Source: an uncultured Bacteroides sp. (GTDB lineage Bacteria > Bacillota > Clostridia > Lachnospirales > Lachnospiraceae). From it: 35,562 nt of DNA. The DNA lies in assembly GCA_945865495.1 (NCBI GenBank), contig CAMBEF010000004.1, forward strand, positions 1 through 35,562. The letters run 5' to 3'. Of this stretch, positions 3,841 to 25,987 are shown piece after piece; the stretch's first letter is position 1, and each line of letters begins with the position of its first letter. Position numbers and translations under genes: made by a program. The notes under the pieces were generated by a model that had not been told where the DNA came from, ran no database searches, and saw only the letters and a program-made list of their open reading frames with translations.

Positions 3841-5163
3841 TCACCCGATTCCGCCAAGCAGTATTCCAAGTATAAGAACGAGTATGCATACCGGGCAGTA
3901 GATATATCTGCATACCGGAAAGAATGCCTTTGTAAATATCCGGCTGCGTCCTGTATTTATCTGAGATTCTACATATTTCTTACCGCATACCCAGAAGAAC
4001 ATGATTCCGGCAAGTCCTGCACCGAGAGGACAGATGTAGATTGAGAGAACGTCCATCCAGTCAGAAACTATGCCCTGAATACATATTGATACGATAAGTG
4101 CTATTACTGCTATGACACCACAGGAGGCCTTGCGTCCGAGGTGGAGCTTTTCCTGAATTGTCGCAATCGGTGCTTCGTATAAATTGATTAACGAAGAAAG
4201 TCCGGCTGAGAATACGGCAACAAAGAAAATTACTGCTATTATATAGCCGCCCGGCATTGACTTGAACAATGCAGGAAGATATATGAACATAAGTCCGGGA
4301 CCGCCCTGATTAAGCTGCGCTCCGGTCGTAGCCATTGCAGGAATTATGACAAGTGCCGCAAGGAGTGCTGCAAGTGTGTCAAACAATGCAACTCTTCCGG
4401 CAGCGGCAGGGATATCTTCATTGTCGGGAAGATATGAGCCGTATATAAGTGTGCCGTTACCCGCAACAGACAGTGAGAAGAACGCCTGACCAAGTGCAAA
4501 TATCCACGTTGACGGGTCAGCCAGAGCCTTAGGGTCAACACGGAATATGTATCTGTAGCCGTCTATAGCGCCCGGCTGGAATGCAACATATATGCCAAGA
4601 ATTGCAAAAAGTATAAAGAATATCGGCATCATTACTTTGTTGGCTTTCTCGATGCCACGCCCAATTCCAAACATAAGAATAATGATTCCGATTACAAGAG
4701 CGGCAATCTGCCATGCATTGTTGCCAAATGCACTCGCCATTGAACCAAAACGTGCAGCGAATTCTCCGGCATCTGAAGGAGCGAGAGTGGCACCTGTGAA
4801 TGCACCGACCATATATCTGAGAATCCACCCCATGACGACAGTATATCCGATTGCCATGGCAAGAGCACCCGCTACAGGTATGTAGCCGAGCAGTTCACCA
4901 AGCTTCTTTCTGCCTTTTGTGCCGCATGCATATCCAAATGCGTCAACAGGACCCGACCTCGTGGCACGTCCGAAGCTCATCTCGCCGATTACGCCGGTGA
5001 AGCCTATAAGTGCAACAAATATAAAATACGGAATCAGATATGAGCCGCCGCCGTACATGGATACCCTTGTCGGAAACATCCATATATTGCCCATTCCGAC
5101 TGCTGAGCCGATACATGCGAGGATAAAGCCCCACCTGTTATTAAAAGAATCACGCTTGTTCAT
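3841..5163 (-). CDS. Sodium-dependent transporter, neurotransmitter:sodium symporter (SNF) family
   Basis: MNKRDSFNNRWGFILACIGSAVGMGNIWMFPTRVSMYGGGSYLIPYF is the classic SNF N-terminus; multiple TM segments. Start set at 5163 (MNKRDSF) rather than ORF start 5199. Confidence 0.92.
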   Translation of the reverse strand: MNKRDSFNNRWGFILACIGSAVGMGNIWMFPTRVSMYGGGSYLIPYFIFVALIGFTGVIGEMSFGRATRSGPVDAFGYACGTKGRKKLGELLGYIPVAGALAMAIGYTVVMGWILRYMVGAFTGATLAPSDAGEFAARFGSMASAFGNNAWQIAALVIGIIILMFGIGRGIEKANKVMMPIFFILFAILGIYVAFQPGAIDGYRYIFRVDPKALADPSTWIFALGQAFFSLSVAGNGTLIYGSYLPDNEDIPAAAGRVALFDTLAALLAALVIIPAMATTGAQLNQGGPGLMFIYLPALFKSMPGGYIIAVIFFVAVFSAGLSSLINLYEAPIATIQEKLHLGRKASCGVIAVIALIVSICIQGIVSDWMDVLSIYICPLGAGLAGIMFFWVCGKKYVESQINTGRSRIFTKAFFPVCRYIYCPVCILVLILGILLGGIG

Positions 5164-5224
5164 TGTAAAATCCCCCGATATCCTGCCGGAGCATTGCATG
5201 ACAGCTCCGGAACATAATATATTT

Positions 5225-5231
5225 AATATAC
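5225..5231. repeat. Left copy of putative 7-bp target-site duplication AATATAC
   Basis: Identical to 5427-5433 immediately outside the other end of the element. Confidence 0.7.
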
Positions 5232-5426
5232 GATGCCAGGGGCAAAAGGTCTAAACCCACATGAGCTCGCTCATAGGTGGGTGAAAGACCTTGGGACCCG
5301 CCCCCGATATGAGCATAAAAGTGGGATGATAATCCCATGATATGCGAATATTGGGGAGGATTGTGGGAGTGCGGAGCACGGAACAATCCATAGGCATCAA
5401 AGTCGGGGGCTTTTGCCCCCAACATC
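5232..5426. mobile_element. MITE-like, highly structured 195-bp insertion element
   Basis: Terminal inverted repeats GATGCCAGGGGCAAAAG (5232-5248) / CTTTTGCCCCCAACATC (5410-5426; reverse complement GATGTTGGGGGCAAAAG, 14/17 identical); flanked by identical 7-mer AATATAC at 5225-5231 and 5427-5433; three internal hairpins. Confidence 0.75.
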
Positions 5427-5433
5427 AATATAC
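5427..5433. repeat. Right copy of putative 7-bp target-site duplication AATATAC
   Basis: Identical to 5225-5231. Confidence 0.7.
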
Positions 5434-5530
5434 ATGAATATTATTCTTATGTAAACGATTTAATATTGATGATATTGTAAATGTATGGCATAATTACAAA
5501 AACAATCACAAACAGCAGGAGGACATTATA

Positions 5531-5824
5531 ATGTCAGAGATTCACAGCATAGATGCAGAAGATGATCAGTTTGCATACCGTTACGACACACAGCTTTTGA
5601 TTGACCGCCGTGACGAAGATCTTGATGAGGATGCAATAGCTGACTACATAACAGAGCATTTTGAAGGGAACAGCCTTATAGCAGCAGGAGACGAGGACCT
5701 TGTCAAGATTCATTTTCATACCAACGAACCTTGGAAGATTCTTGAATACTGCAATTCTGTAGGAGAGATATATGATATCGTTGTTGAGGATATGATTCGT
5801 CAGTCAGCAGGAATGCAGGGCTGA
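5531..5824 (+). CDS. Stand-alone DAK/FakA-like domain protein (resembles an internal segment of YloV/FakA proteins)
   Basis: 97 aa; pattern ADYITEHFEGNSLIAAGDEDLVKIHFHTNEPWKILEYCNSVGEIYDIVVEDMIRQ resembles the FakA/YloV segment (YCTEF...GDSLVVVGD..VKVHVHT..PG..LE.A...G.L..I.IENM..Q). RBS aggagg at 5517. Confidence 0.7.
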   Translation: MSEIHSIDAEDDQFAYRYDTQLLIDRRDEDLDEDAIADYITEHFEGNSLIAAGDEDLVKIHFHTNEPWKILEYCNSVGEIYDIVVEDMIRQSAGMQG

Positions 5825-22824: not shown

Positions 22825-23919
22825 ATGGAGACATATGACATTAAGATTGCATACTCAAAGGGAAAGCTGGAAGAATCAGCAAGAACATTCAGAAGGTTAA
22901 GTGAATCATGTGCCGATTGCGAGATAGCCAATGAACTTTCGGTGATGGCGGAAGTGATTGAACACTGCCTCGATGCCGGAGAAGAGCTTAAGGAGCCGGC
23001 TCCGCAGGTAAGGGGGAGCATAGAAAAAAGGCTTGCAAGAAGAGGAATCCGTGTGAAGAATATGTGTGTTCTGGCAACCAATGACAGGCCGATAGAGATG
23101 ATAATGCAGGCAAGAACCGCAAGAAAAGGCAATATAAGTGCTAAAGAGATATGCAAATGTCTGGAGAATATTCTTGGAATTGATTTTGAACCTTCAGAGG
23201 TCAACAGACGGCTTGTCAATGAGACATATCATGATTATATATTTGTACAGAGTCCGAGGTATCAGACGATAGTCGGCAAATGTTTTGTTACTTCTGATAT
23301 TGATGGCGTATCAGGGGATAACTATTCGGTTGAATATCTTAGCAGTGGAAAACTTGCGGTTACGATTGCGGACGGAATGGGCAGCGGAGCAAGGGCAAGG
23401 AGTGAAAGCGGCGTTGTTATAGAACTGCTTGAGCAGAGCCTTGATGCGGGCTTTGATGCAAGGGCTGCAATAGAACTTATAAATGCTGCAATATCGGCAG
23501 GGAGGCGCGAATGCCATCCGGTGACTGTTGATAACTGTCTTATAGACAGATATTCGGGAATCGCGGAGTTTATAAAGCTTGGTGCAGCATCAACATTTAT
23601 AAGAAGAGACGGATGGGTTGAGATAATCCGTTCCACAACATTGCCTATCGGAGTGCTTGAAAGGATGGACTATGACGGAACGTCCAAAAAACTGTATGAC
23701 GGAGACTATATAATAATGGTGAGTGACGGGGTAATAGAGGCACTTGACGGAGATGACAAGGAAGAACAGATGGTAAGGATTATACAGAATATAGACGTGC
23801 GCGTGCCGGATGTGATTGCAAGTGACATAATAGAGGCGGCAACACAGGGAAAGACCGGGATAACGGATGATATGAGTGTGATAGTCACAGGGATATTTGA
23901 CACACAAATTAATCTGTAA
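22825..23919 (+). CDS. spoIIE: SpoIIE-like PP2C phosphatase without the N-terminal membrane domain
   Basis: VTSDIDGVSGDNYSVEYLSSGKLAVTIADGMGSGARARSESGVVIELLEQSLDAGFD, LPIGVLERMDYDGTSKKLYDGDYIIMVSDGVIEA, GITDDMSVIVTGIF; 364 aa, no TM segments; synteny divIC-spoIIE-tilS. Confidence 0.88.
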   Translation: METYDIKIAYSKGKLEESARTFRRLSESCADCEIANELSVMAEVIEHCLDAGEELKEPAPQVRGSIEKRLARRGIRVKNMCVLATNDRPIEMIMQARTARKGNISAKEICKCLENILGIDFEPSEVNRRLVNETYHDYIFVQSPRYQTIVGKCFVTSDIDGVSGDNYSVEYLSSGKLAVTIADGMGSGARARSESGVVIELLEQSLDAGFDARAAIELINAAISAGRRECHPVTVDNCLIDRYSGIAEFIKLGAASTFIRRDGWVEIIRSTTLPIGVLERMDYDGTSKKLYDGDYIIMVSDGVIEALDGDDKEEQMVRIIQNIDVRVPDVIASDIIEAATQGKTGITDDMSVIVTGIFDTQINL

Positions 23920-23979
23920 TAATATGTTGCAGTAATATGTTTCAGTAAGTGTTAAGATGCAGCAATTAGGCACAGCAGA

Positions 23980-25536
23980 ATGGGGATTGACGTGGATTTT
24001 ACGGATAAAGTTTGCAGATACATAAAAGATAATAAGATGATTGGCGCAGGAGATTGTGTGGTCGTGGGACTGTCAGGCGGGGCTGATTCGGTGAGCCTGC
24101 TTATGGTGCTTGACAGCCTAAAGGAGCGGATGGCGTTTGAACTTAGGGCACTTCATGTTAATCATGGCATACGCGGTGAAGAGGCAATGCATGATGAGCT
24201 TTTTACGAAGGAACTCTGTGACAGGCTGGGAATCAGGCTTAAGACGGTTCACATAGATGTCCCGGCGCTTGTAAAAGAGACACATATGTCATCTGAGGAA
24301 GCGGGAAGGCATGCGCGTCAGGACGAATTTGCAAGGCTGTGTACCGAGATTGAAAAAGAGCAGACAGCAGGACAGCCGGTAGGACGGACAGGCAGACGTG
24401 TGGTAGTTGCGCTTGCACACCACATGGATGACCAGGCAGAGACGGTGCTTCATAATCTTGTGCGCGGAAGTGCGCTTAAGGGCCTTGCGGGAATGTCACC
24501 TGTGAATATTATGTATGGCAGCTGTGATGGCGTAAGAACAGGTTATACAATAATAAGACCGCTGCTTTGTGTGAGGCGTGCGGCAATAGAAGAGTGGCTT
24601 CACGAACATAATCAGGAATATTGCACGGACAGTACCAATCTTGGCAATGATTATACCAGAAACCGCCTGCGCAATACGATTATTCCAATGCTTAATGATA
24701 TGGTGAACGCCAATGCGGTCAGCAATATAGCGTCTGCGGCTGCATTTGCGAAAGAAGCACAGGATTATATAAACAGGCAGGCAGAAGCGGCGTTTGCCCT
24801 CTGCGCAGATGTGCGCGAGCGTGAGACTGTAATAGATGCAGTCAGGCTTTCACAATATGACAGGATTATAAGAAAATATGTAGTGCATATGGCTATAGCC
24901 GCAACAGCCAAGGCAGCCAAGGATATATGCGCGGTTCATGTCGAAAGTGTTGAAGCACTTATTGAGGCCGGAACCGGAAGCAGTGTGGATATTCCGTATG
25001 GACTTAAGGCAAGGCGCAGGTATTCCGAAATAGTCATTCAAAAAGCTGATATGAAGTGCAATAGGCAAAGCGGCGATGCGGATGAACATGATGGATGCTG
25101 GTACTCAAAAAGCGGATGGTATACGGCTGACCATATTAATTTGCAAAAAAATGCACATTCATTCCAACAAAATGACTATACGAAATTAATTGATTATGAT
25201 AAAATTAAATTTAATCTGCAATTAAGAACAAGACAGGAAGATGACTTTATCTGCGTGTATAGTGATGGACGGAGCAAGAAGCTCGGCAGGTTCATGATTG
25301 AGCAGAAGATACCTGCCGAATACAGAGACAGGGTCCTTGTTGTTGCAGATGGCAATGAGATCGTATGGATAGTCGGATTCAGAATGAGTGAGCGGTATAA
25401 GGCTCTGGATACGACAGTAAATACAGCAACGATAAGTGTTGAGAATGGATCAGGAGGAGACAATGGAGAAGATATCAGAATTAATCAGCCAGAAGGCAGT
25501 GGAGACAAGAATAGCAGAGATAGCAGAGCAGATTAA
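23980..25536 (+). CDS. tilS: tRNA(Ile)-lysidine synthase
   Basis: CVVVGLSGGADSVSLLMVLDSLKE (SGGxDS), LRALHVNHGIRGEEAMHDE, LAHHMDDQAETVLHNLVRGSALKGLAGM. Confidence 0.95.
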   Translation: MGIDVDFTDKVCRYIKDNKMIGAGDCVVVGLSGGADSVSLLMVLDSLKERMAFELRALHVNHGIRGEEAMHDELFTKELCDRLGIRLKTVHIDVPALVKETHMSSEEAGRHARQDEFARLCTEIEKEQTAGQPVGRTGRRVVVALAHHMDDQAETVLHNLVRGSALKGLAGMSPVNIMYGSCDGVRTGYTIIRPLLCVRRAAIEEWLHEHNQEYCTDSTNLGNDYTRNRLRNTIIPMLNDMVNANAVSNIASAAAFAKEAQDYINRQAEAAFALCADVRERETVIDAVRLSQYDRIIRKYVVHMAIAATAKAAKDICAVHVESVEALIEAGTGSSVDIPYGLKARRRYSEIVIQKADMKCNRQSGDADEHDGCWYSKSGWYTADHINLQKNAHSFQQNDYTKLIDYDKIKFNLQLRTRQEDDFICVYSDGRSKKLGRFMIEQKIPAEYRDRVLVVADGNEIVWIVGFRMSERYKALDTTVNTATISVENGSGGDNGEDIRINQPEGSGDKNSRDSRAD

Positions 25537-25987
25537 TAAGGAATACGAAGGCCGTGACGTACACCTTATCTGTATACTTAAAGGCAGCCTTTTCTTCACA
25601 TGTGAGCTTGCCAAGAGACTTACGGTTCCGGTAACTATAGATTTTATTCAGGTCTCAAGCTATGGCTCAGGTACTGTATCAAGCGGCAATATTAAGATTA
25701 AAAAAGAGCTTGATGAGAGCATTGAAGGAAGAGATGTAATAGTAATTGAGGATATAATTGATTCGGGTAATACACTGTCTAAGCTCGTACCTTATCTTCA
25801 GGCAATGAAGCCGGCATCACTTAAGATCTGTACACTGCTTGATAAGCCGGACAGACGTGAGGCAGATGTAAAGGTTGATTATAACGGATTTGAGATACCT
25901 GATAAGTTCGTAATAGGATATGGTCTTGACTATGACCAGAGATATAGAAATCTTCCATATATAGGCGTAATAGAGTTCGTTGATTAA
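25463..25987 (+). CDS. hpt: Hypoxanthine phosphoribosyltransferase
   Basis: MEKISELISQKAVETRIAEIAEQINKEYEGRDVHLICILKGSLFFTCELAKRL...VIVIEDIIDSGNTLSKL (PRPP loop); start 25463 after caggagga RBS. Confidence 0.95.
   Translation: MEKISELISQKAVETRIAEIAEQINKEYEGRDVHLICILKGSLFFTCELAKRLTVPVTIDFIQVSSYGSGTVSSGNIKIKKELDESIEGRDVIVIEDIIDSGNTLSKLVPYLQAMKPASLKICTLLDKPDRREADVKVDYNGFEIPDKFVIGYGLDYDQRYRNLPYIGVIEFVD

Follow-up and report, generated by a model that had tools for sequence, protein, structure and literature searches.

A Clostridiales-1 RNA forms the body of a MITE-like element in Lachnospiraceae, with an IS1182-like transposase as its plausible mover

The window analyzed here, a stretch of 35,562 nucleotides (35.6 kb) from a draft Lachnospiraceae genome (2.38 Mb, 88% complete), contains a 195-bp element between two divergent genes (Table 1). 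A sequence-only reading had described this place as the gap between an SNF transporter gene and a DAK-domain gene. The first of these names stands, as the left neighbor matches the symporter domain PF00209; the second does not, as the right neighbor, a 97-aa protein, matches the FakA-like middle domain PF21645 and has no DAK-domain match. A promoter-like site facing the SNF gene has its -10 hexamer within the right-hand AATATAC repeat, which would put the element in or beside a putative SNF promoter. No promoter-like site was found on the plus strand just upstream of position 5231, where the RNA described below starts. Judged by its position, an influence of the element on the expression of its neighbors is plausible.

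Table 1. Features of the element and its surroundings (window coordinates)
Feature	Position	Strand	Basis
SNF-type sodium:neurotransmitter symporter (PF00209), left neighbor	3841..5199	-	Domain match
Left target-site duplication copy, AATATAC	5225..5231	.	Direct sequence check
Clostridiales-1 RNA (RF01699), model positions 1-166, 140.5 bits	5231..5399	+	Rfam covariance model; covariation
Whole nonautonomous MITE-like element, 195 bp	5232..5426	+	Comparison of copies
Closing helix P1, 5' side, GATGCC	5232..5237	+	Pairs with 5393-5398
Left terminal inverted repeat, GATGCCAGGGGCAAAAG	5232..5248	+	Kept in other-genus copies
Closing helix P1, 3' side, GGCATC	5393..5398	+	Rfam alignment, folding
3' hairpin, arms 5402-5410 and 5415-5423, loop TTTT	5402..5423	+	RNA-to-right-tip segment
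Right terminal inverted repeat	5410..5426	-	Direct sequence check
Right target-site duplication copy, AATATAC	5427..5433	.	Direct sequence check
Promoter-like site toward the SNF gene, TTTACA-17-TATATT	5427..5455	-	Consensus match only
FakA-like middle-domain protein (PF21645), 97 aa, right neighbor	5531..5824	+	Domain match

The layout of the element is exactly the one first read from the sequence: imperfect 17-bp terminal inverted repeats, complementary at 14 of 17 positions, with a perfect 7-bp direct repeat immediately on either side. When we scanned for 17-bp inverted repeats with at most three mismatches, spaced 60 to 500 bp apart and bracketed by a 7-bp direct repeat, this was the sole instance in the window, and the architecture was absent from 30 first-order Markov versions of it. 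The longest open reading frames touching the interval (4919-5254 on the plus strand and 5150-5428 on the minus strand) both enter from the flanks, and 195 bp is too short to leave room for a transposase gene, in agreement with the earlier claim that there is none inside.

A cmscan of the window returned a single match over the curated cutoff, the Clostridiales-1 RNA (RF01699), which scored far above the 48 bits required. The element consists of this RNA and about 27 nt beyond the model, comprising a 3' hairpin and the right tip. The 5' side of the closing helix P1 overlaps the left terminal inverted repeat, and the 3' hairpin overlaps the right one. The strand carrying the RNA has a folding energy of -102.8 kcal/mol (z = -9.3 versus shuffles). 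Clostridiales-1 was listed in 2010 as a probable RNA that is non-cis-regulatory (Weinberg et al. 2010, PMC2864571), and we found no mention of its mobility in the text of that paper. The open-access literature that we searched yielded no connection between RF01699 and transposition, which is not proof of absence.

Related copies are dispersed in Lachnospiraceae. The RNA was present in 83 of 150 sampled genomes and then in 215 of 397, with up to dozens of copies per genome in relatives; copy numbers from the two samples are lower bounds, with at most 17 candidates per genome scored in the first and at most 7 in the second. The genome of the window itself holds another complete copy, 95% identical and flanked by an ATATTAT duplication of its own, along with a copy truncated at a contig end and several fragments. 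Copies in a sister species of the same genus have the duplications ATATTAT and ATTGTAT, and an internally deleted copy there has ATATAAT. We then considered 67 two-ended copies from several genera, picked solely by their two ends. Exact duplications of 7 or 8 bp flanked 44 of them; in 2,000 partner shuffles the mean was 1.2, and no shuffle exceeded 5. The target consensus is the AT-rich ATNNNAT, and the duplication is 7 bp, sometimes 8 bp. Within the copy set, the duplications seen most often are ATATAAT and ATTATAT. Together with the overlap between the duplicated target and a -10-like hexamer in the window, this suggests that insertions may favor promoter -10 regions.

An empty site was found for a copy in another genome (G040), where the element lies between two ATTATAT repeats and the uninterrupted site in two sister species has a single ATTATAT. 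In the same genome, two adjoining copies (C34, positions 23570-25913) apparently have one common target copy between them. Shortened forms of 69 to 135 bp keep both tips and have individual duplications; we observed four of 69 bp, one of 74 bp, one of 128 bp, and three of 135 bp, the last length recurring across genera. At the site orthologous to that of the window, a genus mate (G001) retains the 3' part of the element alone. We considered this site as an empty one and rejected it, as its junction is CGGAACA, a sequence common to window positions 5208-5214 and 5379-5385. The simplest reading of this junction is that the insertion is older than the species split and that a deletion between these short repeats subsequently removed the 5' part in G001. 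The element is multicopy rather than single copy at a conserved locus, the window copy being shared only with a sister species, where it is partly deleted, and the other copies end at matching positions. Dispersed copies with their own duplications, the empty site, and an insertion sequence that shares the ends (see below) all support the nonautonomous, MITE-like insertion that the sequence-only reading had proposed.

To examine the RNA fold, we aligned 33 copies, almost every one from a different genus, with a consensus structure of 33 base pairs. Across these copies 97% of the cells were paired, compared with 28 to 44% in controls with slid partners, and double changes occurred in 26 of the 33 base pairs, compared with 13.7 in shuffles. 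Two features of this comparison favor the fold, namely that the consensus structure came from this alignment itself and that a structure-aware model had picked out the copies, but the margin is wide. The named (plus) strand was more stable than its complement in all 33 copies, and G-U pairs outnumbered A-C combinations by 20 to 6. Several unpaired motifs (ATGAG, CGAAT, and GGGAG/CGGA) are conserved across genera as well. These compensatory changes argue that the RNA fold is under selection across genera.

The copies occur in two contexts. MITE copies lie nearly always between genes, and those in tandem gene pairs favor neither orientation, with 12 in sense and 10 in antisense. In other genera, where most RF01699 matches lack MITE ends, 29 matches between tandem genes were in the sense orientation and one was antisense, in a set in which some loci are apparently orthologous between species and hence not all independent, a few matches (G199 and G772) have MITE-like left ends, and the gene calls are simple open reading frames. 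Many of the non-MITE matches begin within a few bases of the upstream stop codon or overlap it. In this set (L264-L272 and L274-L313), the 3' end often lies near the next start codon, and the sequence of P1 varies among copies with the pairing kept. At two loci (L275 and L281), part of the RNA's 3' domain is repeated in tandem immediately 3' of a copy. We tentatively consider that Clostridiales-1 may be a functional RNA that exists in two ways, one as the body of an IS1182-mobilized MITE in either orientation and one as an immobile intercistronic RNA. In the second form, whose closing helix often takes in the stop codon of the gene before it and which ends a short way ahead of the next gene, a ribosome terminating there would open the helix, and the RNA could serve to couple, insulate, or process neighboring operon genes. 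Less likely than not, the element is selfish, its compact fold being kept because it spares host transcripts from damage, and the RNA has no specific function. The unbiased orientation and intergenic placement of the MITE copies agree with such a role, whereas the conserved unpaired motifs exceed what mere stability would need.

Alternatively, the fold could be selected as single-stranded or cruciform DNA for transposition, rather than as RNA. As such a role would have it, P1 and the 3' hairpin both share positions with the terminal repeats, and covariation links P1 to the tip. However, the fold is strand specific and is kept in copies without MITE ends, and derivatives of 69, 74, 128, and 135 bp, with much of the RNA missing, still bear different duplications. 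The body thus seems dispensable for movement, although deletion after insertion may also explain these short forms. On balance we regard selection on a DNA fold as unlikely, and selection on the RNA remains our preferred reading of the covariation.

In search of the mover, we looked for DDE_Tnp_1 transposases in eight carrier genomes and then scanned for duplications around inverted repeats. In one of them (G111), a 1,848-bp element with the tips GATGTTGGGGTCAAATAG and GATGTTGGGGTCAATTAA and the duplication ATCAATAT encodes a 535-aa transposase with the domains PF13751, PF05598, and PF01609. Its best NCBIfam match is IS1182 (NF033551), at 120.8 bits against a cutoff of 270 bits, and we label it IS1182-like only for this reason. 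Relatives of 1,860, 1,863, and 1,945 bp have matching ends and the duplications ATATAAT, ATGACAT, and ATATCAT. The window tip GATGTTGGGGGCAAAAGCCCC (21 nt, 5406-5426, read inward on the minus strand) matches, at every position, the tip of a decayed IS1182-like relative (L232). An autonomous insertion sequence with GATGNNGGGGNCAAAAG ends, for which the sequence-only reading had suggested a search, was thus found in other genera, with duplications of 7 or 8 bp. Three further insertion sequences (L210, L216, and L235) have the right ends but nonidentical flanks. Four related transposase copies (L221, L225, L226, and L227) have a different tip, GATTAGGGTGTCAAAAGG, which suggests a second end type within the same IS1182-like group. 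By Rfam, no Clostridiales-1 RNA lies inside the insertion sequences.

The proposed mover resembles the IS1182 family in its combination of domains and in its best NCBIfam match and differs from it in its subthreshold score and its duplications of 7 to 8 bp. IS1272, which is placed in the IS1182 family, reportedly replaces stem-loops and leaves no duplication behind (PMC5678879), unlike the elements here. Other candidates were set aside. Inverted pairs of the 18-bp tip at large spacing in eight genomes gave no autonomous element, and a 1,178-bp inverted pair in G040 proved to be separate copies. The candidate tips GATTAAAGGG.. and GATTCAAGGG.. were rejected because they lie beside apparently ordinary host metabolic genes, which we take, from reading the sequence, to be those for an aspartokinase, an aminotransferase, and a glycerol-kinase-like protein; the GATTCAAGGG.. 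tip belongs to a diverged 212-bp element. The element had no match in a plasmid collection, nor any in IMG/VR with the pattern that we used; the "phage" matches that we inspected are unannotated fecal scaffolds and carry little weight.

The distribution of the transposase bears on its role. Neither the window's own genome (an 88% complete draft) nor either of its two genus mates had a match to it, which means that the mover is lacking or was not sampled in them. Of the 150 genomes in the first sample, five had a transposase match (E < 1e-30), and all of these belonged to the 29 genomes with 11 or more RNA matches (P = 2e-4, with kinship ignored and the 11-match threshold picked after the counts were known). 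In the sample of 397 genomes, for which the threshold was looser, co-occurrence was weak: the RNA was present in 17 of 25 transposase-positive genomes, compared with 215 of 397 overall (P = 0.11, kinship ignored). Both the lack of a match in the window's genome and this weak co-occurrence would suit a mover from a different transposase family, with the likeness of the IS1182-like ends due to chance. We consider this very improbable, given that the tips are identical over 21 nt and that the IS1182-like elements match the element in duplication length and target preference. Still less credible is an ordinary Clostridiales-1 noncoding RNA gene at fixed loci, with the repeats and duplication arising by chance or as part of the RNA: despite the strong, full-length Rfam match and the copies without MITE ends in other genera, some at matching positions in related species, the empty site and the statistics of the duplications already contradict it, as do the multiple copies with differing flanks and insertion-specific duplications and the ends identical to those of an insertion sequence.

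We are left with high confidence in a MITE-like element that has RF01699 as its body, is probably moved in trans by an IS1182-like transposase, and has a selected fold. As the comparison of copies shows, the element and its relatives insert at AT-rich ATNNNAT sites, duplicating 7 or sometimes 8 bp. An IS1182-like DDE transposase, whose own insertion sequence has the same GATGYYGGGGKCAAAAG end repeats, would recognize the ends and move the element in trans. The covariation shows that selection has kept the single-stranded fold of the named strand across genera during the spread of the element. Within a transcript, the element would fold compactly, and the folded RNA would either function as a small RNA or help the host to tolerate insertions.

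Like bacterial MITEs, the window element is short and multicopy, has inverted repeats and duplications, lacks a transposase, and has ends that match an insertion sequence. It differs from them in that its body is a structured RNA kept by compensatory changes across genera; RUP, BOX, and Correia elements would be suitable for a further comparison. To the MITE reading, our analysis adds that the element is the carrier of a Clostridiales-1 RNA with a conserved fold and that it has a plausible transposase. The window agrees with RF01699 in its whole-model match, fold, and conserved loops. Whereas the family was published as a probable RNA only, most full-length copies examined in Lachnospiraceae have transposon ends and duplications. 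Because evidence for mobility and for selection on the RNA fold come together, RF01699 in Lachnospiraceae is largely a nonautonomous DNA transposon with a selected structured RNA.

The orphan Rfam family Clostridiales-1 thereby gains a concrete biology: in Lachnospiraceae, it has largely spread as a transposon passenger, and the ends, target site, and likely transposase of the element are now open to testing. If the RNA does exist in both ways, its intercistronic form could act on neighboring operon genes as outlined above. The copy number and scattered contexts of some other orphan structured RNAs may likewise reflect transposition, which calls for caution in interpreting them. A MITE body kept by compensatory mutation across genera also raises the question of how the RNA benefits the element or its host.
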